NCBI GenBank assembly: GCA_005116895.1
Contig: SWDO01000015.1
Span: 18,386 to 82,385, forward strand
Source: Nitrospira sp.
GTDB lineage: Bacteria; Nitrospirota; Nitrospiria; Nitrospirales; Nitrospiraceae
Direction of reading: 5' to 3'
DNA: 64,000 nucleotides
Shown piece by piece: positions 19,178 to 54,131 of the stretch; within the stretch, counting starts at the first letter, position 1; every line of letters begins with the position of its first letter. The position numbers and the translations under genes were made by a program. The notes under the pieces were generated by a model. That model was not told where the DNA came from. It searched no databases and saw only the letters and a list, made by a program, of their open reading frames with translations.

Positions 19178-20677
19178 GTGCTCAGGACATGGTACGGATT
19201 CATGCAGCTTTCTATCTTTTGGCGGTTGGTCATAACGTCTCTCATCATTATTACGGTCATGGGAGGAGTCAATATTTATGCGCTCTTTCAGCTTCGGCAG
19301 CTGACGGCGATGAGCACGCAGATGGCGTCCTACCATTATCCAGCTGCTGAATCCGCGAAGAGGCTATTGGGATCGCTCTATGCCCAACTGAACAGTGAAA
19401 AGAAATACCTTGCGACGAGAGATCGCGCCTTTCTGACGAATCTGACGGAAGAGGTTGATGAATTTGAGCGCAATCTCCAGCTGCTGCGGGGGCGGGAAAG
19501 CTCTTCTCAGGGGTTAACCCTGCTGCAAAAGACACATGAATTACTCCAGGAGCGGCTGAAGCTTTTTCAGGATGAATTCGAGACCACAAAGAGGAAGATC
19601 CGTCAGATCACTCCGGAGTATGAACACCGACGTGATGGCCTCATGGATCGGATGTCCGCCTCGATTCAGAGCTACATCGATCTGCACGAGGCTCGAGTGA
19701 GTGTCGGGGTGACGGAATCTCGAGCCAGCGCGGCCCAAGCAGAGGCTGTCACGGAGCAACTGGTCCTAGTGGCGTTGGTGTTCGGGGTGGGGCTTGCCGG
19801 TATCGCCAGCTATACGATTTTGCGTCCACTGCGACAGCTGCAAGGGCATATTAAACAGATTGGGCAAGGCAATTTGGGAGCATCCCTTCAGATCAATGCG
19901 CCTGCGGAGTTACGGGAGTTAGTCGATAGCGTCAATTGGATGGGTAGGAAGTTACAGGAAATAGACGATATGAAAACGGAGTTTTTGGCGCATGTGTCTC
20001 ACGAATTGCGTACCCCAATGGCCTCGATTCAAGAAGGCACGCATCTTTTGCTCGATGAGATTCCAGGTCCACTCGTCCAGGAGCAACGAACCACTCTTCG
20101 GATTATGGCCGATAGCAGCCGGCGGCTGATCCATTTGATCTCTACGATTCTGGATTTGTCAAAAATGGAAGCAGGGATGATGGAATACCACATCGTCCCG
20201 GTGGATTTCCAACGAATCGGGGAAGTCTCCATCAACAAGGTTCGTCTTTTGGCGGACTCCAAGCATGTGCAGCTGGTGCTGGAAAATATCGGGGAGCGTT
20301 CCTGGGTCAAGGCGGATGCATCTCGTCTCGAACAGGTGCTCGACAACTTGTTGTCAAACGCTCTGAAATTCAGCCCTGAGGGTGGTGTGGTCAAGGTGCA
20401 GGTGAAACCCGACCTTCAAGCCGGAGTGCTTGAGGTGACTGTTTCGGATACGGGACCCGGGATTGCTCCAGAAGATCTCCCACATATTTTTGAACGGTTT
20501 TATCAAGGTCGCACGAAAGGGAAGCATACGGCGGGGAGTGGGTTGGGCTTGGCATTGGTGAAGAGGGTCGTAGAGGCTCACGGCGGAAGAATTTGGATCG
20601 AAAGTGAGAAAGGTAAGGGAGTAACTGTACGGTTTATCCTACGGTTGGCAAAACCGGAAAAGGTAGGGCACGCGTGA
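19178..20677 (+). CDS. HAMP-domain sensor histidine kinase (GlrK-like)
   Basis: 499-residue inner-membrane sensor. TM1 lies near residues 14-36, followed by a helical periplasmic sensor (about 37-192), TM2 (about 193-215), HAMP (216-265), the phosphoacceptor box HVSHELRTPMASIQEG (His275) and HATPase motifs (NLLSNALKFS, DTGPGIAPEDL, GSGLGLALVKR). The kinase followed by a lipoprotein and an NtrC-type regulator matches glrK-qseG-glrR of enterobacteria, and the segment TPMASIQEGTHLL resembles GlrK. Start is GTG at 19178, or ATG at 19202. Its stop overlaps the next gene. Confidence 0.85.
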   Translation: MLRTWYGFMQLSIFWRLVITSLIIITVMGGVNIYALFQLRQLTAMSTQMASYHYPAAESAKRLLGSLYAQLNSEKKYLATRDRAFLTNLTEEVDEFERNLQLLRGRESSSQGLTLLQKTHELLQERLKLFQDEFETTKRKIRQITPEYEHRRDGLMDRMSASIQSYIDLHEARVSVGVTESRASAAQAEAVTEQLVLVALVFGVGLAGIASYTILRPLRQLQGHIKQIGQGNLGASLQINAPAELRELVDSVNWMGRKLQEIDDMKTEFLAHVSHELRTPMASIQEGTHLLLDEIPGPLVQEQRTTLRIMADSSRRLIHLISTILDLSKMEAGMMEYHIVPVDFQRIGEVSINKVRLLADSKHVQLVLENIGERSWVKADASRLEQVLDNLLSNALKFSPEGGVVKVQVKPDLQAGVLEVTVSDTGPGIAPEDLPHIFERFYQGRTKGKHTAGSGLGLALVKRVVEAHGGRIWIESEKGKGVTVRFILRLAKPEKVGHA

Positions 20678-21453
20678 TTAGGACAGCAGTGTCTCTGACA
20701 AGATGCTCTCTCATCATCAGTTCTCTCTTGCTGGTCGGGTGTGCGGCATGGACAACGCCAGTACCTGGCTCGCGTCCCTATTTTTCGGCAGAGCCTCGAG
20801 AAGTTAAGTTGTTTCAATCATTTGCAACAAGACAAGAGGGTATGGCCTTAAAATGTGGTGAATCGAATTCCTGCGATCACGTGTACTTTACGCGGGGGTT
20901 GCTTGGCCTGTATGAAAGCCGCGAAATTGCGGAGAAATATTTCGAGAAGGTCGTCGCGCTTGCTCCCAAGAGCCAGCTGGCTGCGTCGAGCAAAGCCTGG
21001 CTGGCGTTGTTGCAACAACCTACCCCTGGGAATCGATCATGGCCTGAAGCTGTTGTCAGAGCACCAGTTCTTGCGGAGGTCAACGCCTCATTAGCAGTGA
21101 CCACCGATCGTCTGGTGCGAGACTTGCTTCATCAAGAGATACTCATTCAACAGCTTCGTGCATCCAAGGAAGGCGAATCCGAGACCATTGAGGCGTTGCA
21201 GCGCGAGTTGACGGATCGAGATCATAAGATCGAGGCACTCTTGTCGAAGAAAGATTCGGCCAAGACGTCAGCCGACCCAGCATCGATTCAAACTCTGCAA
21301 AAGCAGCTTACTGAGCGGGACAGAAAGATCGAGGAGCTTTCTGCGCAACTCGAGGCATTGAAGCGAATTGATCAGGAGATGCGGGAAAAGGTGCGCCCGA
21401 TACGTCCACCATTGACGACGGTTCCCATGCCCGGTCTTGAGACGACACCGTAA
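20674..21453 (+). CDS. Lipoprotein with C-terminal coiled coil (QseG-like position)
   Basis: 259 residues. The signal peptide ends in a lipobox (LLLVGC, Cys near residue 23), so it is probably a lipid-anchored envelope protein. The middle (residues about 40-110) has a TPR-like stretch (REIAEKYFEKVVALAPKSQL); the C-terminal part is a coiled coil (LQRELTDRDHKIEALL, LQKQLTERDRKIEEL). A GTGA overlap couples it to the kinase. In enterobacteria QseG, a lipoprotein of similar size and coiled-coil end, occupies this spot and tunes GlrK; a similar role is inferred. Confidence 0.65.
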   Translation: MIRTAVSLTRCSLIISSLLLVGCAAWTTPVPGSRPYFSAEPREVKLFQSFATRQEGMALKCGESNSCDHVYFTRGLLGLYESREIAEKYFEKVVALAPKSQLAASSKAWLALLQQPTPGNRSWPEAVVRAPVLAEVNASLAVTTDRLVRDLLHQEILIQQLRASKEGESETIEALQRELTDRDHKIEALLSKKDSAKTSADPASIQTLQKQLTERDRKIEELSAQLEALKRIDQEMREKVRPIRPPLTTVPMPGLETTP

Positions 21454-21468
21454 CGAACGGTAGAAGGA

Positions 21469-22899
21469 ATGATGATGATTATGGAGCAAGAAAATATTCT
21501 CGTAGTCGACGACGATGAGGGGTTGTTGCATTTATTGAAAATGCGGTTGTCCGCGATGGGGTTTGCCGTCACCCCCTGTACGACAGGGCAGGATGCCGTT
21601 GGTGAGGCGAAGAAAACGATGTTTAACTTGGCGATCACCGATCTGCGCCTTCGCGGCGAGGATGGGTTGGAGGTGACCGAAGAGCTACTTCGAAGTCACC
21701 CGGGGCTTCCGGTCATCATCCTGACGGCCCATGGCAGTATTCCCAATGCCGTCGAGGCGATGCAGCGGGGAGCGTTCGGGTATCTGACGAAGCCATTTGA
21801 TGATAAGGAGCTGAAAGCCACGATCGAGAAGGCACTCGCGCAACAGCGGATGAGCCGGGAAATTCAGCGGCTCAAGTCGCTGGTTAAGGAACTGTACGGA
21901 CTCGAAAATGTCGTAGCGCGGAGTCCGGAGATGCAACGGCTCTTTCAGCAAATCGCACAGGTGGCTGAGTCGGATGCGACTATTTTACTGTTTGGAGAAA
22001 CCGGAACCGGTAAAGAGGTGATGGCTCGGGTCATCCATACGAACAGCCGGCGCGGGAAAGGTCCCTTCGTGGCACTCAACTGCGCCGCCATACCTGAGAC
22101 GCTGTTCGAGAGCGAGCTGTTCGGACATGTGAAGGGCGCGTTCACGAGCGCTCATGGCGCGAAGCGCGGATTGTTTCAAATGGCCAACGGCGGCACGTTG
22201 TTTCTCGACGAGATTGGCGAGATGCCGCTGTCCATGCAGGTCAAATTATTGCGCGCCGTACAGGAACGGGAGATCCGAGAGGTGGGGGCAGAGACTTCGG
22301 TCAAAGTGGATGTTCGCATCGTTGCGGCGACCAATAAGGACCTCAGTGAGGCGGTGAAGAACGGGACGTTCCGCAACGATCTCTACTATCGAATCTCGGT
22401 GGTTCCTCTGTTCATTCCACCGCTACGGGAGCGTCGGGATGATATCCCGCTGCTGGCTCAACATTTCCTCCAACTCAGTGTGAAACGGGCGAATAAGGAG
22501 GTGAAGGGATTCACCCCTGCGGCACTGCATCGATTGATGATCAATCCCTGGCCCGGCAATGTGCGCGAGTTGGAGAACGTGGTTGAGAAGGCCGTGGTGA
22601 TGTCGCGGCAAGATATGCTCACGCCGGATTTGTTGCCGGCGGTCAGTGTGTCGGCCGAGTCACCGCTCAAGCCGTTGACGGAGGCCAAAGAAGAATTCGA
22701 GCGGACCTACTTGAAGACCGTCCTTCAATTGACGAGCGGAAATATCTCCCGTGCTGCACAGTTTGCCGGCCGGTACCGAGCTGACTTTTATAAGATGCTG
22801 AGAAAATACGGCCTTCATCCGTCGACCACGAAGGGAAAGCCAGATTCCGAGATGGGCGAGCTAGAACCCGAAACAAGTTTGACCGAGGTGGAACGATAG
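21469..22899 (+). CDS. Sigma-54-dependent response regulator (GlrR-like, GAFTSA variant)
   Basis: 476-residue NtrC-family activator. The receiver domain (residues 8-125) has D58 in LAITDLR, T86 and K108; the AAA+ domain (about 150-385) has Walker A GETGTGKE and Walker B GTLFLDEIGE; a short Fis-type helix-turn-helix (NISRAAQFAGRYRADFYKML) closes the protein. The sigma-54 contact loop reads GAFTSA instead of GAFTGA (residues 223-228). It is the third gene of the kinase-lipoprotein-regulator operon. A strong terminator follows. Confidence 0.9.
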   Translation: MMMIMEQENILVVDDDEGLLHLLKMRLSAMGFAVTPCTTGQDAVGEAKKTMFNLAITDLRLRGEDGLEVTEELLRSHPGLPVIILTAHGSIPNAVEAMQRGAFGYLTKPFDDKELKATIEKALAQQRMSREIQRLKSLVKELYGLENVVARSPEMQRLFQQIAQVAESDATILLFGETGTGKEVMARVIHTNSRRGKGPFVALNCAAIPETLFESELFGHVKGAFTSAHGAKRGLFQMANGGTLFLDEIGEMPLSMQVKLLRAVQEREIREVGAETSVKVDVRIVAATNKDLSEAVKNGTFRNDLYYRISVVPLFIPPLRERRDDIPLLAQHFLQLSVKRANKEVKGFTPAALHRLMINPWPGNVRELENVVEKAVVMSRQDMLTPDLLPAVSVSAESPLKPLTEAKEEFERTYLKTVLQLTSGNISRAAQFAGRYRADFYKMLRKYGLHPSTTKGKPDSEMGELEPETSLTEVER

Positions 22900-23616: not shown

Positions 23617-25080
23617 ATGGTATCACCTATGAGTCAAGCCCACGTGCTTGTTGTCGATGATGACCCTGCCGTCCGGGATGTTCTGCAGGAAGTCCTGAGG
23701 CAGGAGGAGTATAGCGTCTCTACAGCCGAGGACGGTGCGGCGGCAATCCAGGCGGTGAAGGACTCGGTGATTCACATCGTGATCACTGATTTTCAGCTGC
23801 CCGATATCGATGGACTTGAGATCATCGATCGCCTGGCGAAGCTCGACGCGAAGATCATTCCTATCATGATGACCGGATTCGGTACGATTGAAACCGCGGT
23901 CCGGGCCATGAAGTCTGGCGCATTTGACTTCATTACCAAGCCGTTTGACCTTGAAACTGTAGCCGTGGTGGTTCGGAAGGCGGCAGAGTTCCTTCGGCTT
24001 CGGCAAGAAAACCATCTCTTGCGGAAGGCCGTACGCGATCAATATCGACTTGAACACCTGGTGGGTGCCAGCGAGCCGATCCAACACGTGATGGAGTTTG
24101 TCCACAAAGTTGCCGACAGCGATAGTACGGTCATGATTCAAGGCGAAAGCGGTACTGGCAAGGAGTTGGTGGCGCGGATGCTCCACTTCAATAGTCTTCG
24201 TAAGGATCGTCCGTTGGTCCCGGTGAACTGTGGCGCGATTCCGGAAAATCTGTTGGAGTCGGAACTCTTCGGGCACGAAAAAGGGGCGTTTACCGGAGCT
24301 ACGCACTCACGAATGGGACGGTTTGAACTGGCAAACGGAGGGACCATCTTCCTCGATGAAATCGGCGAAATGAGCCTGCCATTACAAGTGAAAATCCTTC
24401 GAGTGTTACAAGAGCGGGAATTCGAACGCGTCGGCGGAAATCGGACGATTCATGTGGATGTACGGATCATTGCCGCGACGAATCAGGATTTGGAAACGCT
24501 GGTTGAGGAAAAGCGATTTCGCAAAGATCTGTTCTATCGGCTCAATGTGATCCCCATCGTGATTCCTCCGCTACGAGAACGGCGGAGCGATATTCCGCTC
24601 CTCATCGACCATTTCCTGACTCGCTTTAATCAGAGCAAGCACACTCAGGTGTCAGGCCTTGCCCCCGATGTGCTTGACATGTTGACAGAGTACGACTGGC
24701 CTGGCAACATTCGGGAGTTAGAGAACATGATGGAGCGATTGGTCGTGCTAAAGAAGCACGGCGTCCTTTCCGTTGGAGATGTACCTGAGAAAATCTGTCG
24801 GAGGCCGTTGGCCCCCGAGCTCAAGGAGCAGTTCATCCGGTTCAGTGAGGACGGCATCAATCTTTCCAGAGAGGTTGAACAGTACGAAAAGCATCTCATC
24901 ATGGAAGCCCTGCGGAAAGCTAACGGCGTCACCTCGCGGGCAGCGCAGTTGCTCCACTTGAACCGGACGACGTTGGTTGAAAAGCTGAAACGTAAGGGGG
25001 TGGATCCACGATCTCAATTGGAAACACTCCCGCTCTGGCCACGCTCTTCCAGTCAAAAGATTGACGACCTATCGACCTAG
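23617..25080 (+). CDS. Sigma-54-dependent Fis-family response regulator
   Basis: 487 residues. The receiver (about 8-125) has D58 in VITDFQ, T86 and K108; the AAA+ domain has GESGTGKELVARML, the canonical GAFTGA loop and GTIFLDEIGE; the C-terminal Fis helix-turn-helix includes GVTSRAAQLLHLNRTTLVEKL. It lies alone between tRNA-Thr and the TPR-fleS-fleR operon, without an adjacent kinase. The resemblance of its DNA-binding end to FleQ/FlrA-type regulators and its place before the flagellar cluster make a flagellar role plausible but unproved. ATG at 23617 or 23629. Confidence 0.87.
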   Translation: MVSPMSQAHVLVVDDDPAVRDVLQEVLRQEEYSVSTAEDGAAAIQAVKDSVIHIVITDFQLPDIDGLEIIDRLAKLDAKIIPIMMTGFGTIETAVRAMKSGAFDFITKPFDLETVAVVVRKAAEFLRLRQENHLLRKAVRDQYRLEHLVGASEPIQHVMEFVHKVADSDSTVMIQGESGTGKELVARMLHFNSLRKDRPLVPVNCGAIPENLLESELFGHEKGAFTGATHSRMGRFELANGGTIFLDEIGEMSLPLQVKILRVLQEREFERVGGNRTIHVDVRIIAATNQDLETLVEEKRFRKDLFYRLNVIPIVIPPLRERRSDIPLLIDHFLTRFNQSKHTQVSGLAPDVLDMLTEYDWPGNIRELENMMERLVVLKKHGVLSVGDVPEKICRRPLAPELKEQFIRFSEDGINLSREVEQYEKHLIMEALRKANGVTSRAAQLLHLNRTTLVEKLKRKGVDPRSQLETLPLWPRSSSQKIDDLST

Positions 25081-25168
25081 CCGATGCCAATCCTGACGCG
25101 ATCTATCCACGTTCTCGATTTGCCTCGATAACTCATCTGATTTCCTGAGAGTTTTCGATCTGTCTCCA

Positions 25169-25184
25169 GGGCATGGGCTTTGCT
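25169..25184 (+). promoter_or_regulatory. Possible sigma-54 promoter before the TPR-fleS-fleR operon
   Basis: GGGCATGGGCTTTGCT has GG and GC separated by 10 nt and shares GGCAT...TTGC with the three better sites in the window. Initiation would fall only about 4 nt before the GTG at 25199, so either the mRNA is nearly leaderless or translation starts further in; hence low confidence. Confidence 0.3.
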
Positions 25185-25198
25185 GATGCCCTATCGCC

Positions 25199-27379
25199 GT
25201 GTATCGATACTATTTACGATATTGCCGACTCGTCTTCTTGATTGCTGCTTGGATGGCGTGCTCTTCGCTTGCAATTGGAGAGACCCCCGCGCAGCCTTCT
25301 CCTCATTCCTCGAATGCCGTGGTTCCCGAACGAGCGACCTTGTTACGCAGTCCAGGACCGGTTGATGGACTCGCGCAACCTTTGCCTGATGACGGGCCTC
25401 GTCAGGAAGGACAATCGTCGGGCATCGACGGACTTGCTTGGCAAGAAGGCCAGTCTGCGTACAGGAAGAACGCCTGGCCGGAGGCGCAACGGTTCTTTGG
25501 GAAAATCGTCAAGGAACATCCTGAAAGCCCGCTTGCCCCATCGGCGAAAGCCTTCTTGGTCGAGATCTTGTTGCGGGATGAGGTCTCGGGGAAAACCCGA
25601 TCCGAGGCCATTCAGGAGTACAAAGCACTCCTGAGGGATCATCCGCAGTCGCCGAATGCCCGGAGGGCGGAATGGCGGATCGCGGATTTGTATTTCAAAC
25701 AAGGCGCGCTCCAAGAGGCGCAAGCGTTTTACGAGAACGCGATGGCCCATTCCGTCAATCTTCCCTTCGATAGTAATCGGGCGTTGCTCGGTCTCGGTTA
25801 TACGTTCATGGCCATGGGGAAATGGAGTGATGCCGAGCATGCATTTGCCAACGTGCGAAAGCGAAGTGAGGACGAGCAGTTGCTCCAAGGAGCGACGTTG
25901 GGATTGGCCCATGCACTGTTCAGAGCGCAACGATTTTCTGAAGCGCAGCCGATCTACACCCTCAGTTATCAACGATGGCCGCATCTCCTACGGGGCGACC
26001 CGTTGTCGCTTCAGCGGTATGCCGTCACGCAGGTGAAGCTGCACCAGGAGGCCTCCGCTCGAGAACTCATGCTGCTCTTTTACAACCTCTATCCTCGACA
26101 TGAGTATGCGCCTGCGGCCTTGCTGCATGTGGCTGAGGGGTTGCGGGCAGGTGCTAAACCAATGCTTGCCGAGTTCGTCTATGCGCTGATTCCTTCGCTG
26201 TATCCGTACAGCGCATTGAGTACGACGGCCACACTTCGGCTGGCTGCACTCCGCGCGGAGACCATGTTGCCGGCTGGAAGCAATTCGCTCGGGCTCACAG
26301 TCAGCGCCATGATCCACAGCGTGCCGATTCCGGACCAGACCGATGCCTCCTACCGATCGCTGCTGGAAGAGATTGCGGCTCGAGAGGTGAGCAATCCAAT
26401 GGGCAGCGAGGCCCGGTATTACCTTAGCAGGGGATATGAAAGCGCAGGCGACACGAATCGCGCGCTTCAAACCTACAAGGAGATTACGCTTCGAGCGACC
26501 AATAAGAACGACCTATGGGCCATCAAATCCGCAGAGCGTCTGTCTGCTCTTCTGACACCCTGGATCGAAGCGGCGATCGCATCGCGCGACGATCTGACCG
26601 TTGTCAGTCTATTTCACAGGCAAGGAGCCATGGCCGAACAGCGTTTTGCGCGTTCCCCTGTGTTGCTGAACATCGCGGAATCCCATCGGCGTCTTGGATT
26701 TGCGCCGGAAGCCGTGCGGCTGTACCAGCAGGTTCTTAAATCGTCCAACGATTCAGCGTCGCTCGAAGCGGCTTTGATCGGCCTTGGAGGGATCTACCTG
26801 GATCAACGAGATCCTGAGGCCGCGAGAAAAGTGCTGGAGCGATACCGGTTTCAGTTCCCTATCGGTACATACGAAACGGAGGTGCGGCATCTTCTGATTG
26901 AGACCATGCGGCAACAGCGGGATCTGCAAGGGCTTCTCCATCTGTGCCGGATGTGGTTGTTGCGCCACCCGGTTCATCCTGAACGACCAGCTATGTATGT
27001 GGAGTTAGCCAAGACACTGGGAGAACTGGATAAGCTGGATGAGTCTGCCCTGGCCTATGAAGAGGCCTTCAAGGCCGGCGCGGTGCAAGCGTCCACTACG
27101 CTTGTCTCCTATGCCGATACGTTATCTCGATTGAATCGACATGAGCGAGCTATTACCGCCTATCAATTAGTGTTGGCCAAGAAACCGAACGTGTCTCACG
27201 CCGATTGGGCGCGGCTGCAAACAGCCAACCATTGGACGGCATTGAAGCAATATGATCGCGCCACCGTGGCGCTGGCCGAGCTTGATGTCACGGACGATCC
27301 AATGCTCAATCGACTTGCAGCATCCCTTAAAACAAGTGTGCGAGCGGTCAGTCATTCGGGGAAGCGGGAGGGGCTATGA
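25199..27379 (+). CDS. Exported TPR-repeat protein in the flagellar regulator operon
   Basis: 726 residues. The signal peptide (YYLRYCRLVFLIAAWMACSS) is followed by tetratricopeptide repeats throughout: AWPEAQRFFGKIVKEHPESP, FKQGALQEAQAFYENAM, MAMGKWSDAEHAFANVR, APEAVRLYQQVLKSSND, DKLDESALAYEEAFKAG. The protein should act in the periplasm as a binding scaffold. Its stop overlaps the start of the kinase gene (ATGA), so it is cotranslated with a FleS/FleR-like pair, which suggests a signal-input or assembly-checkpoint role (inference). No ribosome site is obvious at the GTG start. Confidence 0.75.
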   Translation: MYRYYLRYCRLVFLIAAWMACSSLAIGETPAQPSPHSSNAVVPERATLLRSPGPVDGLAQPLPDDGPRQEGQSSGIDGLAWQEGQSAYRKNAWPEAQRFFGKIVKEHPESPLAPSAKAFLVEILLRDEVSGKTRSEAIQEYKALLRDHPQSPNARRAEWRIADLYFKQGALQEAQAFYENAMAHSVNLPFDSNRALLGLGYTFMAMGKWSDAEHAFANVRKRSEDEQLLQGATLGLAHALFRAQRFSEAQPIYTLSYQRWPHLLRGDPLSLQRYAVTQVKLHQEASARELMLLFYNLYPRHEYAPAALLHVAEGLRAGAKPMLAEFVYALIPSLYPYSALSTTATLRLAALRAETMLPAGSNSLGLTVSAMIHSVPIPDQTDASYRSLLEEIAAREVSNPMGSEARYYLSRGYESAGDTNRALQTYKEITLRATNKNDLWAIKSAERLSALLTPWIEAAIASRDDLTVVSLFHRQGAMAEQRFARSPVLLNIAESHRRLGFAPEAVRLYQQVLKSSNDSASLEAALIGLGGIYLDQRDPEAARKVLERYRFQFPIGTYETEVRHLLIETMRQQRDLQGLLHLCRMWLLRHPVHPERPAMYVELAKTLGELDKLDESALAYEEAFKAGAVQASTTLVSYADTLSRLNRHERAITAYQLVLAKKPNVSHADWARLQTANHWTALKQYDRATVALAELDVTDDPMLNRLAASLKTSVRAVSHSGKREGL

Positions 27380-28665
27380 TGAGTGCTATGACCAGACATC
27401 CGGAAGAACGGGAGTTGCTGCAAGCCGCCTTCAAAAGTTTTGATGAGGCGGCTCACACGTTGCAGCAGTCATACAGTGCGTTGACGACACGTGTGGAGCA
27501 GATGGATCTGGAGTTGGCACAGAGCAACGAGGCGCTTCGCCGTCAGCTGTGTGACAACGAGGCCATGCGTGTCCATCTGGATGGGATTCTTGAGTCCTTG
27601 TCTATGGGGGTGTTGGTGATGGACGACTGCGAAATAATCACTCGCAGCAATCGTGCCGCCGAGGCGCTACTTGGCGTCACAGATGACGAACTGCGGAACC
27701 GTCGTGCGTCCGAGATATTGGCGGGTGTTGGTCTTGACGTGTGTGATCAGCCTCAACGCATCGGTCAGGCCGTCGTCTCCATTAGCCAGGTTCCACTACA
27801 CAACAATTCCGGAGCGCACTCCGGACACCTGATCCTGTTTCAGGACATTACGCGTATTTATCAACTGGAAGAACAGTTGCAGCGCAAGGAACGACTGGCA
27901 GCCATGGGGGAGCTGATCGGTCGGATTGCCCACGAGATCAGAAACCCATTGGGCAGCGTTGAGCTTTTCGCGTCCATGCTGCAGCGAGATCTTGGCGAGC
28001 GTTCGTCCGGTAAACGCTACGCGCAACAAATCTCGCAGGCCGTCCAGTCGATGGATCGGTTACTGACCAATCTCTTGCTGTATACGCGGCCGGTTCACTT
28101 GGCGCGTGGTTGGCACTTGGCCGAATCATTGATCGATGAATCAATCAAGTTGGCGGCCCATGCGATTACCAAGGTGCCGGTGGAAATCCGAGTGGACATC
28201 AGTCAAGACATTCATTCGATGTGGTGTCATGACGGACAGTTGAAACAAGTGCTCGTGAATCTGGTCGTGAATGCAGTTCAGGCGATGCCGAATGGGGGGG
28301 GGCTGGCGATCAGTCTTTCCCAGGAACCGCCGCAAACACTTGGTCTACCCGCTGTTCGACTGACCGTCCGGGACTCCGGCATTGGCATCGCTCCGGCCCA
28401 TCTGTCGCGCATATTCGATCCGTTCTTCTCGACGAAGGATGCGGGGACCGGCCTTGGTCTGGCGATTGTCTATTCCATAGTCGACGCGCACCAAGGACGG
28501 ATCGATGTCGACAGTACAGTCGGGCAGGGCACCGCATGCTCCATTATTCTGCCTCATCCAGCAATCGGTGGAGATCCCCATGCGGTGCAGACTCCAACGC
28601 GGAACGAGCTGGAATCCAGTCAATCCTACCCTGGTGAGCACACTATGGCGTTAGTGGAGGAGTGA
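27376..28665 (+). CDS. PAS-domain histidine kinase (FleS/FlrB-like)
   Basis: 429-residue cytoplasmic kinase without membrane helices. A coiled coil (about 25-70) is followed by PAS (about 68-160, GILESLSMGVLVMDDCEIIT), HisKA with RIAHEIRNPLGSVELFASML (His186), and HATPase with NLVVNAVQAMPNGGG, DSGIGIAP and GTGLGLAIVYSI. The arrangement and the next gene match FleS-FleR/FlrB-FlrC, the pair that activates middle flagellar genes through sigma-54. The start overlaps the TPR gene and the regulator begins 4 bp after its stop. Confidence 0.87.
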   Translation: MMSAMTRHPEERELLQAAFKSFDEAAHTLQQSYSALTTRVEQMDLELAQSNEALRRQLCDNEAMRVHLDGILESLSMGVLVMDDCEIITRSNRAAEALLGVTDDELRNRRASEILAGVGLDVCDQPQRIGQAVVSISQVPLHNNSGAHSGHLILFQDITRIYQLEEQLQRKERLAAMGELIGRIAHEIRNPLGSVELFASMLQRDLGERSSGKRYAQQISQAVQSMDRLLTNLLLYTRPVHLARGWHLAESLIDESIKLAAHAITKVPVEIRVDISQDIHSMWCHDGQLKQVLVNLVVNAVQAMPNGGGLAISLSQEPPQTLGLPAVRLTVRDSGIGIAPAHLSRIFDPFFSTKDAGTGLGLAIVYSIVDAHQGRIDVDSTVGQGTACSIILPHPAIGGDPHAVQTPTRNELESSQSYPGEHTMALVEE

Positions 28666-28669
28666 TCTC

Positions 28670-30085
28670 ATGAATGACCGCGAGAAGAGTAGCCCTCTTT
28701 CTGACCATGGCGACGAGAGCGAGCGTATTCTTATCGTCGATGACGACCCATCAATGCGAACTGCACTGATGGAAACCGTCAAGCGACTCGGCTATTCCGT
28801 ACAAGGAGCAGTCGATGGAATGGATGCCATTGAACGGATTCCCCATTTTCGTCCATGGATGGTGCTGACCGATCTCAGGATGCCGCGTCTGAATGGGCTC
28901 GAATTGATCAAGGAAGTCAAGGCGCGCGCTCCTCATGCGACGATCGTTCTGATGACGGCGTATGGGGCCATAGAGACCGCCGTCGAGGCCATGAAGTTGG
29001 GCGCCAGTGAGTATCTCTTAAAACCATTCTCCATGGACTTGCTGGAGCGAGTCATCGTGAATCTCAAGTCGGGACGAGACGTAGGGAGCATCACGGGTCA
29101 CCCCTCTCACCCAACGGAAAACCGGGCTCTGCTAAGCCAGGACCCAGGCATGATCAGGCTCTTAAGCACGATCGAAGGGGTCGCGTCGAGTCAGGCCACT
29201 GTCTTGATCCAAGGAGAGAGCGGCACCGGAAAAGAGTTGTTAGCCCGGTTTATCCATAATCGGAGCCCGCGGGCGCATCGGCCATTCATCGCGGTGAATT
29301 GTGCGGCGTTACCGGATGGACTGCTCGAGAGTGAGCTCTTTGGCCACGAACGTGGTGCGTTCACCGGGGCGTTAATCAAAAAGATCGGCAAGTTTGAGAT
29401 GGCGCATATGGGCACATTGCTTCTGGACGAAATCAGTGAAATGAACCTGAGTTTGCAGGCCAAGTTACTGCGCGTATTACAGGAGCGCGAAGTCGATCGG
29501 ATCGGGGGGCGCGACCCTGTGTCAGTCAATATACGGGTGATCGCGACGACCAATCGAGCGCTCTATCGGGAAGTTGAGCAAGGGCGTTTTCGAGAGGATC
29601 TCTACTATCGTCTGAACGTCTTTCCGGTCACCGTTCCACCGCTACGTGAACGCACGATCGATATTCCATTGCTCGCGCGGCATTTTGTGAGCCAGTCGGC
29701 CACGAGGAACGGTCTCATGCCACCGACGCTGTCTGATAGTGCGTGTGCGCATTTGCAACGGTTGGGATGGAAGGGAAATGTCCGTGAATTAGAGAATGTC
29801 ATGGAACGGGCGGTGTTACTGGCGGGGCCTGGCCCTATCCTTCCCGAACACTGTCCGCCTGAACAGAACGGAGAACGACCGGTTCTGTCTATCCATCCGC
29901 CACAACCGGCCAACGGCTCTTTGTGGGAAATGGAGCGAGAGTTAATTTTTAAGACATTGGCCCGAGTGAAGGAGAATCGTACGCATGCGGCGAAAGAGTT
30001 GGGAATCAGCATTCGTACGTTACGAAATAAGCTGCGAGAGTATCGAGAAGGTGAGCGACCCTGTTCGATCACTGGAGGACTGTAA
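28670..30085 (+). CDS. Sigma-54-dependent flagellar response regulator (FleR/FlrC/FlgR-like)
   Basis: 471 residues. The receiver has D68 in VLTDLRMP, T96 and K118; the AAA+ domain has GESGTGKELLARFI, a canonical GAFTGA loop and GTLLLDEISEM; the C-terminal Fis helix-turn-helix includes THAAKELGISIRTLRNKL. It lies directly after its kinase and before flgB. By position and family it is the likely activator of the sigma-54 promoters before flgB, fliL and flgF. Confidence 0.9.
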   Translation: MNDREKSSPLSDHGDESERILIVDDDPSMRTALMETVKRLGYSVQGAVDGMDAIERIPHFRPWMVLTDLRMPRLNGLELIKEVKARAPHATIVLMTAYGAIETAVEAMKLGASEYLLKPFSMDLLERVIVNLKSGRDVGSITGHPSHPTENRALLSQDPGMIRLLSTIEGVASSQATVLIQGESGTGKELLARFIHNRSPRAHRPFIAVNCAALPDGLLESELFGHERGAFTGALIKKIGKFEMAHMGTLLLDEISEMNLSLQAKLLRVLQEREVDRIGGRDPVSVNIRVIATTNRALYREVEQGRFREDLYYRLNVFPVTVPPLRERTIDIPLLARHFVSQSATRNGLMPPTLSDSACAHLQRLGWKGNVRELENVMERAVLLAGPGPILPEHCPPEQNGERPVLSIHPPQPANGSLWEMERELIFKTLARVKENRTHAAKELGISIRTLRNKLREYREGERPCSITGGL

Positions 30086-30273: not shown

Positions 30274-30684
30274 ATGACGATCTTTGATAAAAGTATGCGA
30301 CTGTTACAGCGGACTTTGGATCTTCGCAGCGCACGTCAGCGCGTGATCACCTCAAACCTAGCCAATGAAGAAACGCCGGGGTATCGTGCGTCCGAATTGA
30401 CCTTTATGGACCAATTGCAGTCGGCCCAGAAGGGACGCTTGCCGATTGTCATGGCGGCGACTCAGTCTCGACATTTCGGCGTACATGGGCCGCAGGGTGT
30501 GCAGGCGGTGGCGGGAAAACTCGGTGAAGTTCCGGCCGGCGACCTACCTCTCGACGCCAACTCTGTAAATCTTGAGCTGGAGATGGCCAAATTGTCCGAG
30601 AACGCCATGCAGTACAATGCAGCGGCCACGATACTGGCCAAAAAGTTTCACGGATTGCTGAATGCGATACGAGAAGGGAGATAA
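30274..30684 (+). CDS. flgB: Flagellar basal-body rod protein FlgB
   Basis: 136 residues, a proximal rod subunit secreted through the flagellar export gate. The N-terminal helix ends in the rod/hook family motif VITSNLANEETPGYRASEL. The C-terminal helix (NLELEMAKLSENAMQYNAA) is the matching half of the coiled coil. First gene of a long flagellar operon, preceded by a sigma-54 promoter and a good ribosome site. Confidence 0.95.
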   Translation: MTIFDKSMRLLQRTLDLRSARQRVITSNLANEETPGYRASELTFMDQLQSAQKGRLPIVMAATQSRHFGVHGPQGVQAVAGKLGEVPAGDLPLDANSVNLELEMAKLSENAMQYNAAATILAKKFHGLLNAIREGR

Positions 30685-30747
30685 CGCCTAGCCCGCTCGG
30701 ATGGCCGACATCGGCAAGCGGTTGACCGTTGATAGAGGAGGTTCATC

Positions 30748-31197
30748 ATGGAAATGTCCGACAGTATGGCGGTATCGGTATCTGGTTTGGACGCCCAACG
30801 GCGACGACTCAATGTTATTGCGAGCAATCTTGCGAACGCCCAATCAACGAAAACTCCGACTGGCGGTCCGTACAAGCGTCGGGATGTCGTCTTTCGCTCA
30901 ACGGCGGTTCCAAGCGCATTTCATGGGACGTTTCGACAAATCGCCGTTGGGCCGTCGGCGCATGCGCTCGAAGGGGTCTCCGTCGCTCGAGTGGTGGAAG
31001 ATTCCAAACCAGGCCAACTCATCTATGATCCTCATCATCCGGATGCGAATCCCAAAGGGTTCGTGCGTCTTCCTAATGTGAATGTCATGGAAGAAATGGT
31101 GAATATGATCGGTGCGTCGCGTGCGTACGAAGCCAACGTCCAAGCCATCAATGCAACACGTGCCATGTGGAACAAGGCACTGGAAATCGGGAGGTGA
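30748..31197 (+). CDS. flgC: Flagellar basal-body rod protein FlgC
   Basis: 149-residue rod subunit. The N-terminus has LNVIASNLANAQSTKTPTGG, the rod signature, and the C-terminus VNVMEEMVNMIGASRAYEAN, typical of FlgC. The stop shares a base with the fliE start. The ATG at 30748 follows a GGAGGTTC ribosome site. Confidence 0.95.
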   Translation: MEMSDSMAVSVSGLDAQRRRLNVIASNLANAQSTKTPTGGPYKRRDVVFRSTAVPSAFHGTFRQIAVGPSAHALEGVSVARVVEDSKPGQLIYDPHHPDANPKGFVRLPNVNVMEEMVNMIGASRAYEANVQAINATRAMWNKALEIGR

Positions 31198-31502
31198 TGA
31201 TGAATCAGATTTACGGTCCGACATCAGGTATCGCTCCGATTCCCGATGTGGCCCCAGGTGGGTCGGTCGGAACGTCAGGCGCCTCCGGGTTCATGGATTC
31301 GCTCAAATCTGCAATCGGAAAGGTCAACGACACGCAAGTGGAAGCCGGTCGAGCGGTCGGTGACCTCATGACAGGCGAGACGCAGGACCTTCACCGTACG
31401 ATGGTCGCGTTGCAGCAAGCAGATGTGTCGTTCCAATTAATGATGCAAATCCGGAATAAACTGGTCACCGCCTACGAAGAGATTCAACGGATGCAAATGT
31501 AA
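31197..31502 (+). CDS. fliE: Flagellar hook-basal body complex protein FliE
   Basis: 101 residues. FliE connects the MS ring to the rod. FMDSLKSAIGKVNDTQVEAG and the C-terminal VSFQLMMQIRNKLVTAYEEI are family hallmarks. The start at 31197 overlaps the flgC stop (TGATG); the next codon is also ATG. Confidence 0.93.
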   Translation: MMNQIYGPTSGIAPIPDVAPGGSVGTSGASGFMDSLKSAIGKVNDTQVEAGRAVGDLMTGETQDLHRTMVALQQADVSFQLMMQIRNKLVTAYEEIQRMQM

Positions 31503-31534
31503 TCAGTTAGGCGCGATGAAGGGACGTGACGAGC

Positions 31535-33100
31535 ATGTTGTCCAAGTTCTCCATCAATCAGCGAATGATCATCCTTGTCGCTCTGGCTGGATCAGTGGCG
31601 GGTCTCATCGCGCTCACACTCTGGACGCAGCAGCCGGACATGCAGGTGTTGTTCACCAATCTCGGCGGCGAAGACGCGGCTGCTATCATCGATAAGTTGA
31701 AAGAGACGAAGGTGCCGTACGAAACGACCGGTGGTGGAGCGACGGTGCTGGTTCCAAGCGCCCAAGTGCACGATCTCCGATTGCAACTCGCGACCCAAGG
31801 GCTTCCCCATGGAGGTGGGGTCGGCTTCGAGATTTTTGATCGTACATCGATCGGCATGTCCGAATTCGTGCAGAAGCTCAACTATCGGCGCGCCTTACAG
31901 GGGGAGTTGGCGAGAACCATCGCGCAGCTGCCTGAAGTCGAACGTGCGCGGGTTCATCTGGCGATTCCTGAACGACGACTCTTCGCCAACGAACAAGAGA
32001 AAGCGCGCGCGTCCGTGATCGTGTCACTTCGTAACGGCCAACAGCTGGCTCAGGCACAGGTGCAGGGGGTCATCCATTTGGTGTCCAGTAGCGTGGAAGG
32101 CTTGCAGGCCCGTGATGTGACCGTGGTGGATGGGCACGGCCGTATGTTGTCGTCCACCATGACGGATGAAACCGCCGGGTTGACGAATACCCAGCTCGAA
32201 TATCAACGGAGCATCGAAAAAGATGTCGAAACGCGCATCCAAACGATGTTGGAGCGGATTGTTGGATCCAATAAAGCCGTCGTGCGTGTATCCAGCGTAG
32301 TGGACTTTCGCAAGGTTGAGACAACAGAGGAGCGATACGATCCGAACAGCCAGGTGGTGAGGAGCGAACAACGAGGGCAGGAAAAGGCGAATGGCACCAA
32401 CGGCGTCAGCGGTGGCGTCCCAGGTGTGCAGTCGAACGTCCCGCCTGGTACAGATCAGGAGCTCCCGCAAACCAGTTCGAATAACAGTCAGACGAAAAAT
32501 GAAACGGTCAACTATGAGATCAGTCGAACTGTGTCCAAAATCGTTGAGCCGGTAGGAGTCATTAAACAATTGTCCGTGGCCGTGCTGGTTGATGGGATCT
32601 ATGAAACAGCCAAAGCCGGTGATGGACAGTCCACGGAGACACCGGCTGCCGCGCGCAAATACGTTCCACGTTCAGAAGAAGACCTCAAGCGGATTGAAGA
32701 CATCGTCAAGAAAGCGATGGGCTTTTCGCCTGAGCGGCAGGATCAGGTTCAGGTTGTGAACGTTCAATTCGGCGCGGAACCGGAAGAGCTGCAGAGTGCG
32801 ACGGCAGAAGCCTTGGCCGAGGGGCCGAAGCCATGGTTGCCGTATCTCCGTTATGGAGTCGGCATTCTCTTGTTTGCGGTGATTCTGTTGTTCGTCGTCC
32901 GTCCGCTGTTGGCCATGTTGGGTTCGACGACGGAGCAGATGCAAACCGAAGCGACGGTCACGGCGTTGCCTGGGGCTCAGGCCATGATGCAAGCCTCATT
33001 GACGAATGCCCCGGATCGAGCTCAAATCATCGACATGGCCAGAAAAAATCCAGACACGGCCGCTGTGGTCGTGAAGCAGTGGCTCAAGAATCCTACATAG
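31535..33100 (+). CDS. fliF: Flagellar MS-ring protein FliF
   Basis: 521 residues, the inner-membrane MS ring that houses the export gate and carries the C ring. TM1 (MIILVALAGSVAGLIALTLW), ring-building motifs (VPYETTGGGATVLVP, DRTSIGMSEFVQKLNYRRAL) and C-terminal TM2 (YGVGILLFAVILLFVVRPLL) are visible, followed by a short FliG-binding tail. ATG at 31535 is preferred to GTG at 31526 because AAGGGA stands 10 nt before it. Confidence 0.95.
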   Translation: MLSKFSINQRMIILVALAGSVAGLIALTLWTQQPDMQVLFTNLGGEDAAAIIDKLKETKVPYETTGGGATVLVPSAQVHDLRLQLATQGLPHGGGVGFEIFDRTSIGMSEFVQKLNYRRALQGELARTIAQLPEVERARVHLAIPERRLFANEQEKARASVIVSLRNGQQLAQAQVQGVIHLVSSSVEGLQARDVTVVDGHGRMLSSTMTDETAGLTNTQLEYQRSIEKDVETRIQTMLERIVGSNKAVVRVSSVVDFRKVETTEERYDPNSQVVRSEQRGQEKANGTNGVSGGVPGVQSNVPPGTDQELPQTSSNNSQTKNETVNYEISRTVSKIVEPVGVIKQLSVAVLVDGIYETAKAGDGQSTETPAAARKYVPRSEEDLKRIEDIVKKAMGFSPERQDQVQVVNVQFGAEPEELQSATAEALAEGPKPWLPYLRYGVGILLFAVILLFVVRPLLAMLGSTTEQMQTEATVTALPGAQAMMQASLTNAPDRAQIIDMARKNPDTAAVVVKQWLKNPT

Positions 33101-36421: not shown

Positions 36422-36858
36422 GCTTTGAGTCATTGCGGAAGCTGCGTGTTCAGACGGTAGAGGCCTTGATGATGGAGTTGGCACAGATCACCCACACGTT
36501 GACTCAGAGCGAGGCACAGTATCAGGACCTTGCAGTCACAATGCAGCGGGATGTCGTTACTTACGACCAACAATCTGTGCAAGGACTGACGATAGAGGCG
36601 TGGTTGGAATGGCAGGGGCGTATGGATTCGCAGGAGGCAGCGCTGCGCCGAGTGCGTCGAGAGCTCGATCAAGCCGTCGAGGCGTGGCAGCGTACCAAGG
36701 CGCTGCTCGTTGAAGCCAGCCAGGAGCGCAAGCTGCTTGATCTGGTTGCCGACAAACGCCGTGACGCGCAACGTGCCGACGCGGCGCGTCAGGAACAGCG
36801 AGCGATGGATGAGGTTGCGAGCCGCCGGCACTCCACTCGACGAGAGAGCCACTCATGA
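36418..36858 (+). CDS. fliJ: Flagellar export protein FliJ
   Basis: 146 residues, almost wholly coiled coil (LRRVRRELDQAVEAWQRTKA, EASQERKLLDLVADKRRDAQ), as in FliJ, the central stalk that activates FliI and cycles late chaperones. The position directly after fliI and overlaps at both ends (ATGA with fliI and with the next gene) support the call more than sequence motifs do. Confidence 0.88.
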   Translation: MSFESLRKLRVQTVEALMMELAQITHTLTQSEAQYQDLAVTMQRDVVTYDQQSVQGLTIEAWLEWQGRMDSQEAALRRVRRELDQAVEAWQRTKALLVEASQERKLLDLVADKRRDAQRADAARQEQRAMDEVASRRHSTRRESHS

Positions 36859-37613
36859 CGACAGGACCTATCAGAGGTTGGGGAGACCGTTTTGGTCTTG
36901 ACCGCCTTGGGCGTGTCTCGAGCATGGAGCTGAGAAAAAACCGGCATTCCCAATTTTTGACGATGGTTGGTGGCATTATCGGTTCGACCGTTCTCTTCTG
37001 GATCATGGTGCAATTGGGACAAGCCTCCTCGGAACCGAAGGATAGAACACAGATGGCGACGTCGGGTGGGCTAAAGCAGAGCAAGTCACCGGAAGCGAAG
37101 GAGGCAGAGAGTGCTGGAGCAGAGTCTGATGCCGATGCCAAGCTATTGGCTCCACCAACGGTCCAGGGGCCGGCCATTGATGTTCCTCGCGAAGTGCTCG
37201 ACATGCTGGATCAAAGAAAGCGCGACCTTGATCGGCGCGAGCAGTCGCTTCGTCAGAATGAAGAACGACTCATGATTGTAAGGGGCCAGATTGAGGAGCT
37301 CTTGGACCAGAACGAAGCCTTGGAAAAGAAGATCCAAAGTGCGCAAGCCAAAGAAGACCGAGCTCCGTCATCACAAGCCAAGGCCCATGCGGAGAAGGAG
37401 CGTTCGACGCAGGAACAACGGACACAGCTCGCCAAGATCTACGAATCCATGCCGTCTGAGGACGCCGCTTCGCGTCTCGAACATATGCCGGATCGGAAAG
37501 CCATTGAAATCCTCAAAATGGTGAAAGCAAAGACGGCCGGCGCGATTCTCGCGCAAGTCAAAGCCGATCGGGCCGCGAAGCTGACGGAGCAGCTGCTGAC
37601 ACAGACGCCGTAG
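36855..37613 (+). CDS. MotE/YlxF-like protein with MgtE-N type C-terminal domain
   Basis: 252 residues. One membrane helix (FLTMVGGIIGSTVLFWIMVQ, near residues 34-54), a long charged coiled coil (RKRDLDRREQSLRQNEERLM onward), and a C-terminal helical domain IYESMPSEDAASRLEHMPDR and KAIEILKMVKAKTAGAILAQ, matching the MgtE N-terminal/FliG-middle-like fold. Proteins of this design sit between fliJ and fliK in many bacteria (YlxF in Bacillus, MotE in rhizobia, a chaperone of a periplasmic motor protein). Start overlaps fliJ. Confidence 0.78.
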   Translation: MTTGPIRGWGDRFGLDRLGRVSSMELRKNRHSQFLTMVGGIIGSTVLFWIMVQLGQASSEPKDRTQMATSGGLKQSKSPEAKEAESAGAESDADAKLLAPPTVQGPAIDVPREVLDMLDQRKRDLDRREQSLRQNEERLMIVRGQIEELLDQNEALEKKIQSAQAKEDRAPSSQAKAHAEKERSTQEQRTQLAKIYESMPSEDAASRLEHMPDRKAIEILKMVKAKTAGAILAQVKADRAAKLTEQLLTQTP

Positions 37614-53246: not shown

Positions 53247-53315
53247 AAGTCAGTTCATGCCTGCATTTGGCTGAGTTCGCGTTCGATATACAGTAATCTC
53301 TGTTCGGAACGAAAC

Positions 53316-53331
53316 TGGCATAAGGGTTGCT
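53316..53331 (+). promoter_or_regulatory. Sigma-54 promoter of the flgF operon
   Basis: TGGCATAAGGGTTGCT matches the -24/-12 consensus with GG and GC 10 nt apart. Expected initiation is near 53343, followed by an AAAAGGAG ribosome site for flgF at 53361. Confidence 0.75.
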
Positions 53332-53360: not shown

Positions 53361-54131
53361 ATGAATCGAGGTATCTATTCCATCTTGTCTGGAGCACTCG
53401 CCCATGAACGGCGCATGCAAGTGTTTGCGAACAATATGGCCAATGTAAATACCGCTGGGTTCAAGCAGGATGAGCAGGCCTTTAAAGCCATACTCCCACG
53501 GTACCATGCGGTCGCTCCCACTGGTGGCCGAACTGTGGGATTGGCCCAACAGATCATGGCCAGACCACTCGGACCATCTGAGCGCGCGTTTGTCGCACCA
53601 CATCAGATCAAGACCACATTTGAGCCCGGTCGCATTCGATTGACCGGAAATCCGCTGGACGTCGCCATTCAAGGACAAGGGTTTTTTGAGGTACAGACGC
53701 CGCAAGGGTCTCGATACACCCGCAACGGCATGCTGTCGCTGGATAATCAACGTCGATTGGTAACAGGACTTGGCTATCCCGTGATGGGGACGAGGGGTGA
53801 GATCAAGATTCCTCCCGGGAAATTGGAGATTACGACACAGGGAGACATCAAAGTCGATGACAAGCCTGTCGCGACAATCAAAATTATGGAATTTGCGGAT
53901 GAAGACATGCCGCAGAAGTCGTCGGAAGGACTGTTCTTCTCGGAAAAAGGCACGGTGAGCAAAAATCCACAGATTCAGGTTGGGCACATCGAAGAGTCCA
54001 ATGTCAATTCCATTGGCGAGATGGTGAAGATGCTTGAGGGTATGCGCAACTATGAATCAACACAAAAGCTGATTCAATCGCTTGATCGTATGACCGAGGT
54101 CACGATTCAAGATGTCGGACGAGTGCTGTAG
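53361..54131 (+). CDS. flgF: Flagellar basal-body rod protein FlgF
   Basis: 256-residue proximal rod protein. N-terminal MQVFANNMANVNTAGFKQDE, central GNPLDVAIQGQGFFEVQTPQ and RYTRNGMLSLDNQRRLVTGL, C-terminal VGHIEESNVNSIGEMVKMLE. Similar to FlgG but shorter and next to it, the usual flgF-flgG order. A palindromic repeat follows. Confidence 0.92.
   Translation: MNRGIYSILSGALAHERRMQVFANNMANVNTAGFKQDEQAFKAILPRYHAVAPTGGRTVGLAQQIMARPLGPSERAFVAPHQIKTTFEPGRIRLTGNPLDVAIQGQGFFEVQTPQGSRYTRNGMLSLDNQRRLVTGLGYPVMGTRGEIKIPPGKLEITTQGDIKVDDKPVATIKIMEFADEDMPQKSSEGLFFSEKGTVSKNPQIQVGHIEESNVNSIGEMVKMLEGMRNYESTQKLIQSLDRMTEVTIQDVGRVL

Follow-up and report, generated by a model that had tools for sequence, protein, structure and literature searches.

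A 64,000-nucleotide stretch of the Nitrospira sp. contig SWDO01000015.1 (the window) carries, in a flagellar gene cluster, a gene for a 726-residue tetratricopeptide repeat (TPR) protein that overlaps the gene of a FleS/FlrB-type histidine kinase. We propose, with a probability of roughly three in four, that this TPR protein belongs to the structure of the flagellar motor, in the periplasm, and works like PflA, MotC, or MotK. Its location in the motor, its contact with a FlgY-type protein, and its role toward the stators are suggested by analogy with these proteins. A scaffold is favored over a sensor for the kinase because relatives keep the TPR gene where the kinase is missing beside it. The protein is likened to PflA in its working but is not classed as PflA, since it shows neither a specific sequence match nor an AMIN/beta-sandwich domain. 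The relevant features of the window are the following.

23617..25080, + strand: upstream sigma-54 response regulator, kept before the TPR gene among relatives
25168..25184, + strand: sigma-54 (-24/-12) promoter-like site AGGGCATGGGCTTTGCT, 14 bases ahead of the TPR start codon
25199..27379, + strand: TPR protein gene, 726 amino acids (aa), GTG start, many Pfam TPR models above cutoff
27376..28665, + strand: FleS/FlrB-type histidine kinase gene, 429 aa, ATG start, with Pfam HATPase_c, HisKA, and PAS_4
28670..30085, + strand: FleR-type sigma-54 response regulator with receiver, AAA+, and Fis-type helix-turn-helix domains
30274..33100, + strand: flgB, flgC, fliE, and fliF (early basal body), downstream of the FleR-type regulator
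36855..37613, + strand: FlgY/FlbB/MotE-like E-ring protein gene, 252 aa, PF03448 (MgtE_N) above cutoff, directly after fliJ

The identity of flgC follows from a FlgC family match over cutoff at the corresponding place in the genome, while flgB, fliE, and fliF were named from a reading of the sequence and the gene order. As the initial annotation described, the TPR and kinase open reading frames (ORFs; 25199-27379 and 27376-28665) overlap by four bases, ATGA. The kinase has the features of the FleS/FlrB type (PAS, HisKA, and HATPase_c domains, an adjoining sigma-54 regulator, and a flagellar cluster around it). Its description as soluble also held, as no membrane-spanning stretch was found in a hydropathy scan, in which the highest 19-residue Kyte-Doolittle value was 1.22.

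The TPR gene and fleS can occur apart at the flagellar locus

To compare gene orders beyond Nitrospirota, the stretch upstream of fliF was examined in 30 loci, 18 of which lie outside the phylum and have a convincing TPR gene. FleS adjoins the TPR gene in only three of these 18 (L229, Desulfurivibrio L231, and Nitrospinaceae L234), and it is missing beside the TPR gene in the other 15, where a search with a FleS profile gave no match between the TPR gene and flgB. In 12 of the 18, flgB is the very next gene after the TPR gene, without an intervening FleS or FleR, namely, in eight Geobacter-type loci (L220-L227, one labeled Deltaproteobacteria), Geotalea L238 (where the TPR ORF is split), Desulfocapsa L235, L236, and Aquificota L243. 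The remaining three (Desulfobulbaceae L230, Mariprofundaceae L239, and L244) have the TPR gene followed by FleR, without FleS. Two loci were kept out of the 18: L228, where no Pfam TPR model exceeds its cutoff in the TPR candidate and a FleS ORF is present (its inclusion would give 15/19), and the Omnitrophota locus L248, whose 1,314-aa product has no export signal and owes its TPR label to a profile only. No TPR gene stands at this place in L237, L240, L241, L242, L245, L246, and L247. Conversely, the Pseudomonas and Vibrio loci read regulator-FleS-FleR-FliE-FliF with no TPR gene at the place; their upstream regulators, relatives of the one in the window, we take to be FleQ and FlrA. Because TPR loci without FleS occur alongside these FleS loci without TPR, the two genes are separate in both directions at the locus. 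Geobacter fgrM/fgrO/fgrS/fgrT, a possible instance of the same gene order, was dropped, as in the Geobacter-type loci retrieved the TPR gene adjoins neither FleS nor FleR. FgrM is mentioned in PMC2725144 and PMC8844916, which, like the other papers given here by PMC number, are cited from excerpts.

Within Nitrospirota, we sampled 295 genomes, 79 of them from the family of the window, with presence cutoffs of 1e-15 for TPR, 1e-50 for the kinase, and 1e-15 for FliF. In the family, 68/79 genomes carry all three and 10/79 carry none of them at these cutoffs; in the last one (G077), the TPR gene lies at the end of a contig, and neither the kinase nor FliF is matched. The kinase gene adjoins the TPR gene in all 68 genomes having both, and a relative of the upstream regulator precedes the TPR gene in 69/69 family loci. 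The order TPR, FleS, FleR also recurs in 42 of 48 loci from other families (L070-L110 and L213-L219), so that the TPR-fleS-fleR synteny, for which the initial annotation had asked a check, is conserved over the phylum. Thermodesulfovibrio L249, which has the same order, was counted as Nitrospirota, and contig ends truncate L087, L106, L232, and L233. As the in-frame four-base overlap is found in 56/68 family genomes versus 6/35 distant Nitrospirota loci with FleS, tight coupling of the TPR and kinase genes is mainly a family trait, and adjacency is the conserved feature.

Separation was also seen inside the phylum. Two of the 48 other-family loci end before a whole TPR gene, and four have a TPR gene without FleS at the locus: L071, L080, L088, and L072, the last being cut by a contig end. 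According to the FleS profile, L080 and L088 have no FleS at the locus, and L071 has neither FleS nor FleR. A genome-wide kinase search (1e-50) gave no match in the L071 and L080 genomes and one, on another contig, in the L088 genome. The FleR-type regulator of L080 has 350 aa, is matched by the FleR profile from position 147, and has no receiver domain and no FleS beside it. Separately, FleS-type ORFs of only about 245 to 312 aa lie beside an intact TPR gene in L070, L074, L075, L077, L079, L081-L084, L089, L090, and L107; these are class- and phylum-level relatives, and by their length, the ORFs have no room for the PAS region.

A FlgY-like gene accompanies the TPR gene

The protein encoded at 36855-37613 has a C-terminal MgtE_N domain, a hydrophobic segment from residue 34, and fliJ just before its gene. 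The excerpt of PMC13023049 gives such features as the signature by which the E-ring protein FlgY/FlbB/MotE is known and also describes a TPR-rich periplasmic partner for these proteins (FlgY-PflA, MotE-MotC/MotK, and FlbB-FlcB). We compared the region that follows fliF in 16 genomes with the TPR gene (that of the window and 15 of the 18 non-Nitrospirota ones, leaving out G297, G310, and G337) and in two gammaproteobacteria. A FlgY-like ORF follows fliJ in 15/16 TPR-carrying genomes versus 0/2 TPR-less gammaproteobacteria, the exception being the Aquificota genome, where the genes stand in another order. In six family members without FliF, a single MgtE_N match each was present among the matches listed, in an ORF of transporter size (482 to 495 aa). 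We propose the FlgY-like protein as the structural partner of the TPR protein.

The TPR protein has a signal-peptide-like N terminus and a long repeat array

The N terminus of the TPR protein consists of positive residues, a hydrophobic stretch, and a Pro/Ser-rich linker, after which the repeats begin. To compare this feature across genes, we scored a Kyte-Doolittle value of at least 1.6 over 14 residues inside the first 60 residues. Such a segment is present in 94/108 TPR genes of the phylum versus 0 to 2% of other genes (FleS, 1/104; FleR, 0/81; upstream regulators, 2/104; FlgB, 0/65; FlgC, 0/76; FliE, 0/63). Some of the 14 TPR misses fall short by very little, and for some the annotated start may be placed too far upstream. 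The signal peptide claimed initially is thus supported as a signal-peptide-like N terminus, and export of the protein is putative.

Since the TPR profile was built from candidates picked by position, 49 proteins were checked against Pfam, and 48/49 members of this alignment (A1) match TPR_19 at 0.01. Most of L070-L090 lie outside this set, and the TPR call there is a direct match to the window protein. The window protein is matched once in its own genome, and a low-confidence structure model gives 33 predicted helices from residue 76 onward. No catalytic or peptidoglycan-hydrolase domain was found in it with Pfam. At this locus, L220-L227, L234, L103, and L071 have an extra N-terminal region ahead of the repeats; in the window protein, a short linker takes its place. 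The TPR protein is also the fastest changing of the products compared: between G250 and the window, identity is 35% for TPR, 49% for FleS, and 70% for FliF.

A sigma-54 promoter-like site lies directly ahead of the TPR gene

A site of the type GGCAY-N5-TTGCT lies directly ahead of the TPR start. It was scored with our own weighting of the published sigma-54 consensus (PMC2725144 and PMC8844916), and apart from AGGGCATGGGCTTTGCT, a score of 0.84 or more is reached in the 64 kb by a single further + strand site and by one site on the - strand. Scores of at least 0.8 were obtained around the TPR start in 93/108 loci versus 150/5400 shuffled regions, the shuffles keeping neighbor frequencies only. 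At neighboring genes, such scores were found for the upstream regulator in 1/74, FleS in 1/104, FleR in 1/106, FlgC in 2/76, FliE in 1/75, FliF in 1/75, FliG in 0/6, and FlgB in 32/75. In the genus of the window, the distance from the beginning of the site to the annotated start codon is exactly 31 bases in 35/38 loci. The TPR gene would be the first in a TPR-fleS-fleR unit, probably transcribed as one. With the transcription start predicted from the site, its transcript leader would be about 4 nucleotides long, and leaderless translation from the GTG start is possible. The other + strand site scoring at least 0.84 (53315-53331) lies just before an ORF at 53361, the first residues of which look like a flagellar rod protein.

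A periplasmic motor scaffold as the preferred reading

In the mechanism that we propose, the TPR solenoid would be positioned around the MS ring, make contact with the FlgY-type E-ring protein, whose gene lies about 9.5 kb downstream, and act as a scaffold for the stators. The TPR protein would be made early, because the sigma-54 promoter would put its gene at the head of a unit shared with fleS and fleR. Rather than marking a sensor-kinase pair, the ATGA overlap may then serve to express an early motor part together with the regulators of the step that follows. In Campylobacter jejuni, according to the excerpt of PMC11870540, formation of the rod comes after that of the stators and of the scaffolds close to the inner membrane, an order with which an early-class TPR gene fits.

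The kinase itself is most likely an ordinary cytoplasmic checkpoint kinase, by analogy with FleS of Pseudomonas, FlrB of Vibrio, and FlgS of Campylobacter, which likewise are cytoplasmic and lie beside a sigma-54 regulator and early flagellar genes. The excerpt of PMC7064773 describes FlgS, FlrB, and FleS as cytoplasmic or predicted so, with an activity that needs the MS ring, rotor, and export apparatus, and attributes a PAS domain to FleS and FlrB as well. The cytoplasmic location of the kinase, which the initial annotation found puzzling beside an exported protein, is therefore not so. From the cytoplasm, the soluble kinase would monitor the assembly of the MS ring, rotor, and export apparatus, in the way that has been suggested for FlgS and FleS in other systems. 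Unlike the window, the Pseudomonas and Vibrio loci have no TPR gene between the upstream regulator and fleS.

Among periplasmic TPR proteins, PflA, a motor spoke of Campylobacter and Helicobacter, resembles the window protein in its signal-peptide-like start, its long TPR array (16 to 17 motifs in PflA according to excerpts of PMC12222027 and PMC11870540), its flagellar association, and a FlgY-type gene in the genome. It differs in having an N-terminal beta-sandwich/AMIN domain, which the window protein does not have, while the window gene stands in a fleSR unit. The excerpt of PMC11870540 treats as a potential PflA homologue a TPR protein encoded at most five genes from a flagellar cluster, provided that the genome also has FlgY, a description into which the window TPR gene falls. 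MotC (Sinorhizobium) and MotK (Cereibacter), which are periplasmic TPR proteins paired with the FlgY-like MotE, are likened to the window protein by description. MotC is mainly TPR and MotK has an additional AMIN domain (excerpt of PMC13023049); MotK and MotE are periplasmic, interact, and are essential for rotation (excerpt of PMC10954123). The AMIN plus TPR pair of PflA and MotK occurs at this very place in Nitrospinaceae L234 (AMIN, 23.4 bits versus a cutoff of 20.5). The L103 protein scores 18.8, just below that cutoff, and AMIN is weak in 2/8 Geobacter-type N termini. When the PDB was searched with the Geobacter-type N-terminal domain, nothing useful emerged.

Several observations weigh against the scaffold. 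In the window protein, Pfam recognizes neither AMIN nor any other N-terminal domain, and the single-sequence structure model has a mean pLDDT (predicted local distance difference test score) of only 47.8, too low to support a fold search. The PflA chain 9hmf_K was matched by profile A1 at 4.1e-20, at rank 45 behind other TPR and pentatricopeptide repeat (PPR) proteins, and was absent from the 58 matches of profile A3 at 1e-5; by sequence, the window protein thus appears to have no link to PflA beyond general TPR similarity. The 15 FlgY-like ORFs comprise that of the window, nine weak phmmer matches to it (10 to 37 bits), and five recognized by place and look. At L224 and L238, a kinase ORF or a piece of one lies 3 to 5 kb upstream of the TPR gene, and a distant link is possible there, while the deltaproteobacterial Desulfonauticus L237 has flgB without a TPR gene before it. 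Finally, set against the conserved sigma-54 site here, quantitative PCR on a C. jejuni rpoN mutant gave no significant change for the seven genes covered in the excerpt of PMC11870540.

If the scaffold reading is true, deletion of the TPR gene should impair or paralyze the motor and leave the kinase checkpoint unblocked. According to published work, the genes of such scaffold proteins have no conserved order. The shared position before [fleS-fleR-]flgB would offer a sequence-independent way to candidate scaffold genes in several phyla, including uncultured ones. We found no literature account of a TPR gene in a fleSR unit or of its shared place before [fleS-fleR-]flgB, although figures and supplementary tables of PMC11870540 may include such species. 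A more far-reaching idea, speculative and rather unlikely in our judgment, is that one ancestral scaffold address before [fleS-fleR-]flgB-flgC-fliE-fliF is shared by Nitrospirota, Nitrospinota, Geobacter-type and Desulfobulbus-type bacteria, Mariprofundaceae, and Aquificota. In Nitrospirota, translation of the scaffold from a near-leaderless sigma-54 transcript would in addition be coupled to that of the checkpoint kinase. The amount of kinase would then follow scaffold synthesis, and the rod/hook decision would be tied to scaffold supply.

Alternative roles of the TPR protein

The TPR protein could instead be a periplasmic assembly factor, a chaperone or remodeling adaptor that aids the rod, the P ring, or peptidoglycan passage and leaves the finished motor. 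The sigma-54 site and the 12 loci in which the gene lies directly upstream of flgB-flgC, with no adjacent FleS or FleR, would suit such a role. However, FlgY-like genes co-occur with the TPR gene and a Nitrospinaceae protein has the AMIN-TPR form, both of which speak for a scaffold, and neither a catalytic nor a peptidoglycan-hydrolase domain is seen in the window protein. We regard an assembly factor as unlikely.

The initial annotation had suggested that the exported protein reports envelope or basal body assembly to the kinase. In this case, the periplasmic TPR protein would sense assembly and signal via a membrane partner to FleS. Such a reporter would account for the adjacency of the two genes in all 68 family genomes, the TPR-FleS-FleR order in 42/48 other Nitrospirota loci, and the overlap in 56/68 family members, and the excerpt of PMC7064773 leaves room for FlrB/FleS acting via an unidentified factor. 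Nevertheless, no membrane partner is encoded between the TPR and kinase genes, and kinase ORFs of about 245 to 312 aa stand beside an intact TPR gene in some class- and phylum-level relatives. In addition, the TPR gene is found without fleS in three Nitrospirota loci and 15/18 loci of other phyla, and fleS without the TPR gene is found in Pseudomonas and Vibrio. Reporting to the kinase is accordingly disfavored, and we consider it decidedly improbable.

A chance association of an unrelated envelope TPR protein (YbgF/CpoB or BamD-like) with the unit is very improbable: although the best NCBIfam match is tol-pal YbgF, at 90.4 bits over two stretches and just over the cutoff of 90.1, the gene has a single match in its own genome and is absent (1e-15) from all 10 family genomes without FliF and kinase. 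The tie of the TPR gene to the flagellum, as initially annotated, is firm.

A second kinase gene set upstream

Further upstream in the window, positions 19178-22899 hold a second set of genes for a kinase, an exported protein, and a regulator, namely, a HAMP/CHASE3 kinase, a 259-aa protein with a hydrophobic N terminus, and a GlrR-like sigma-54 regulator, whose best NCBIfam match (PRK15115) is below its cutoff. This set is reminiscent of GlrK-QseG-GlrR, in which the exported protein acts on the kinase.

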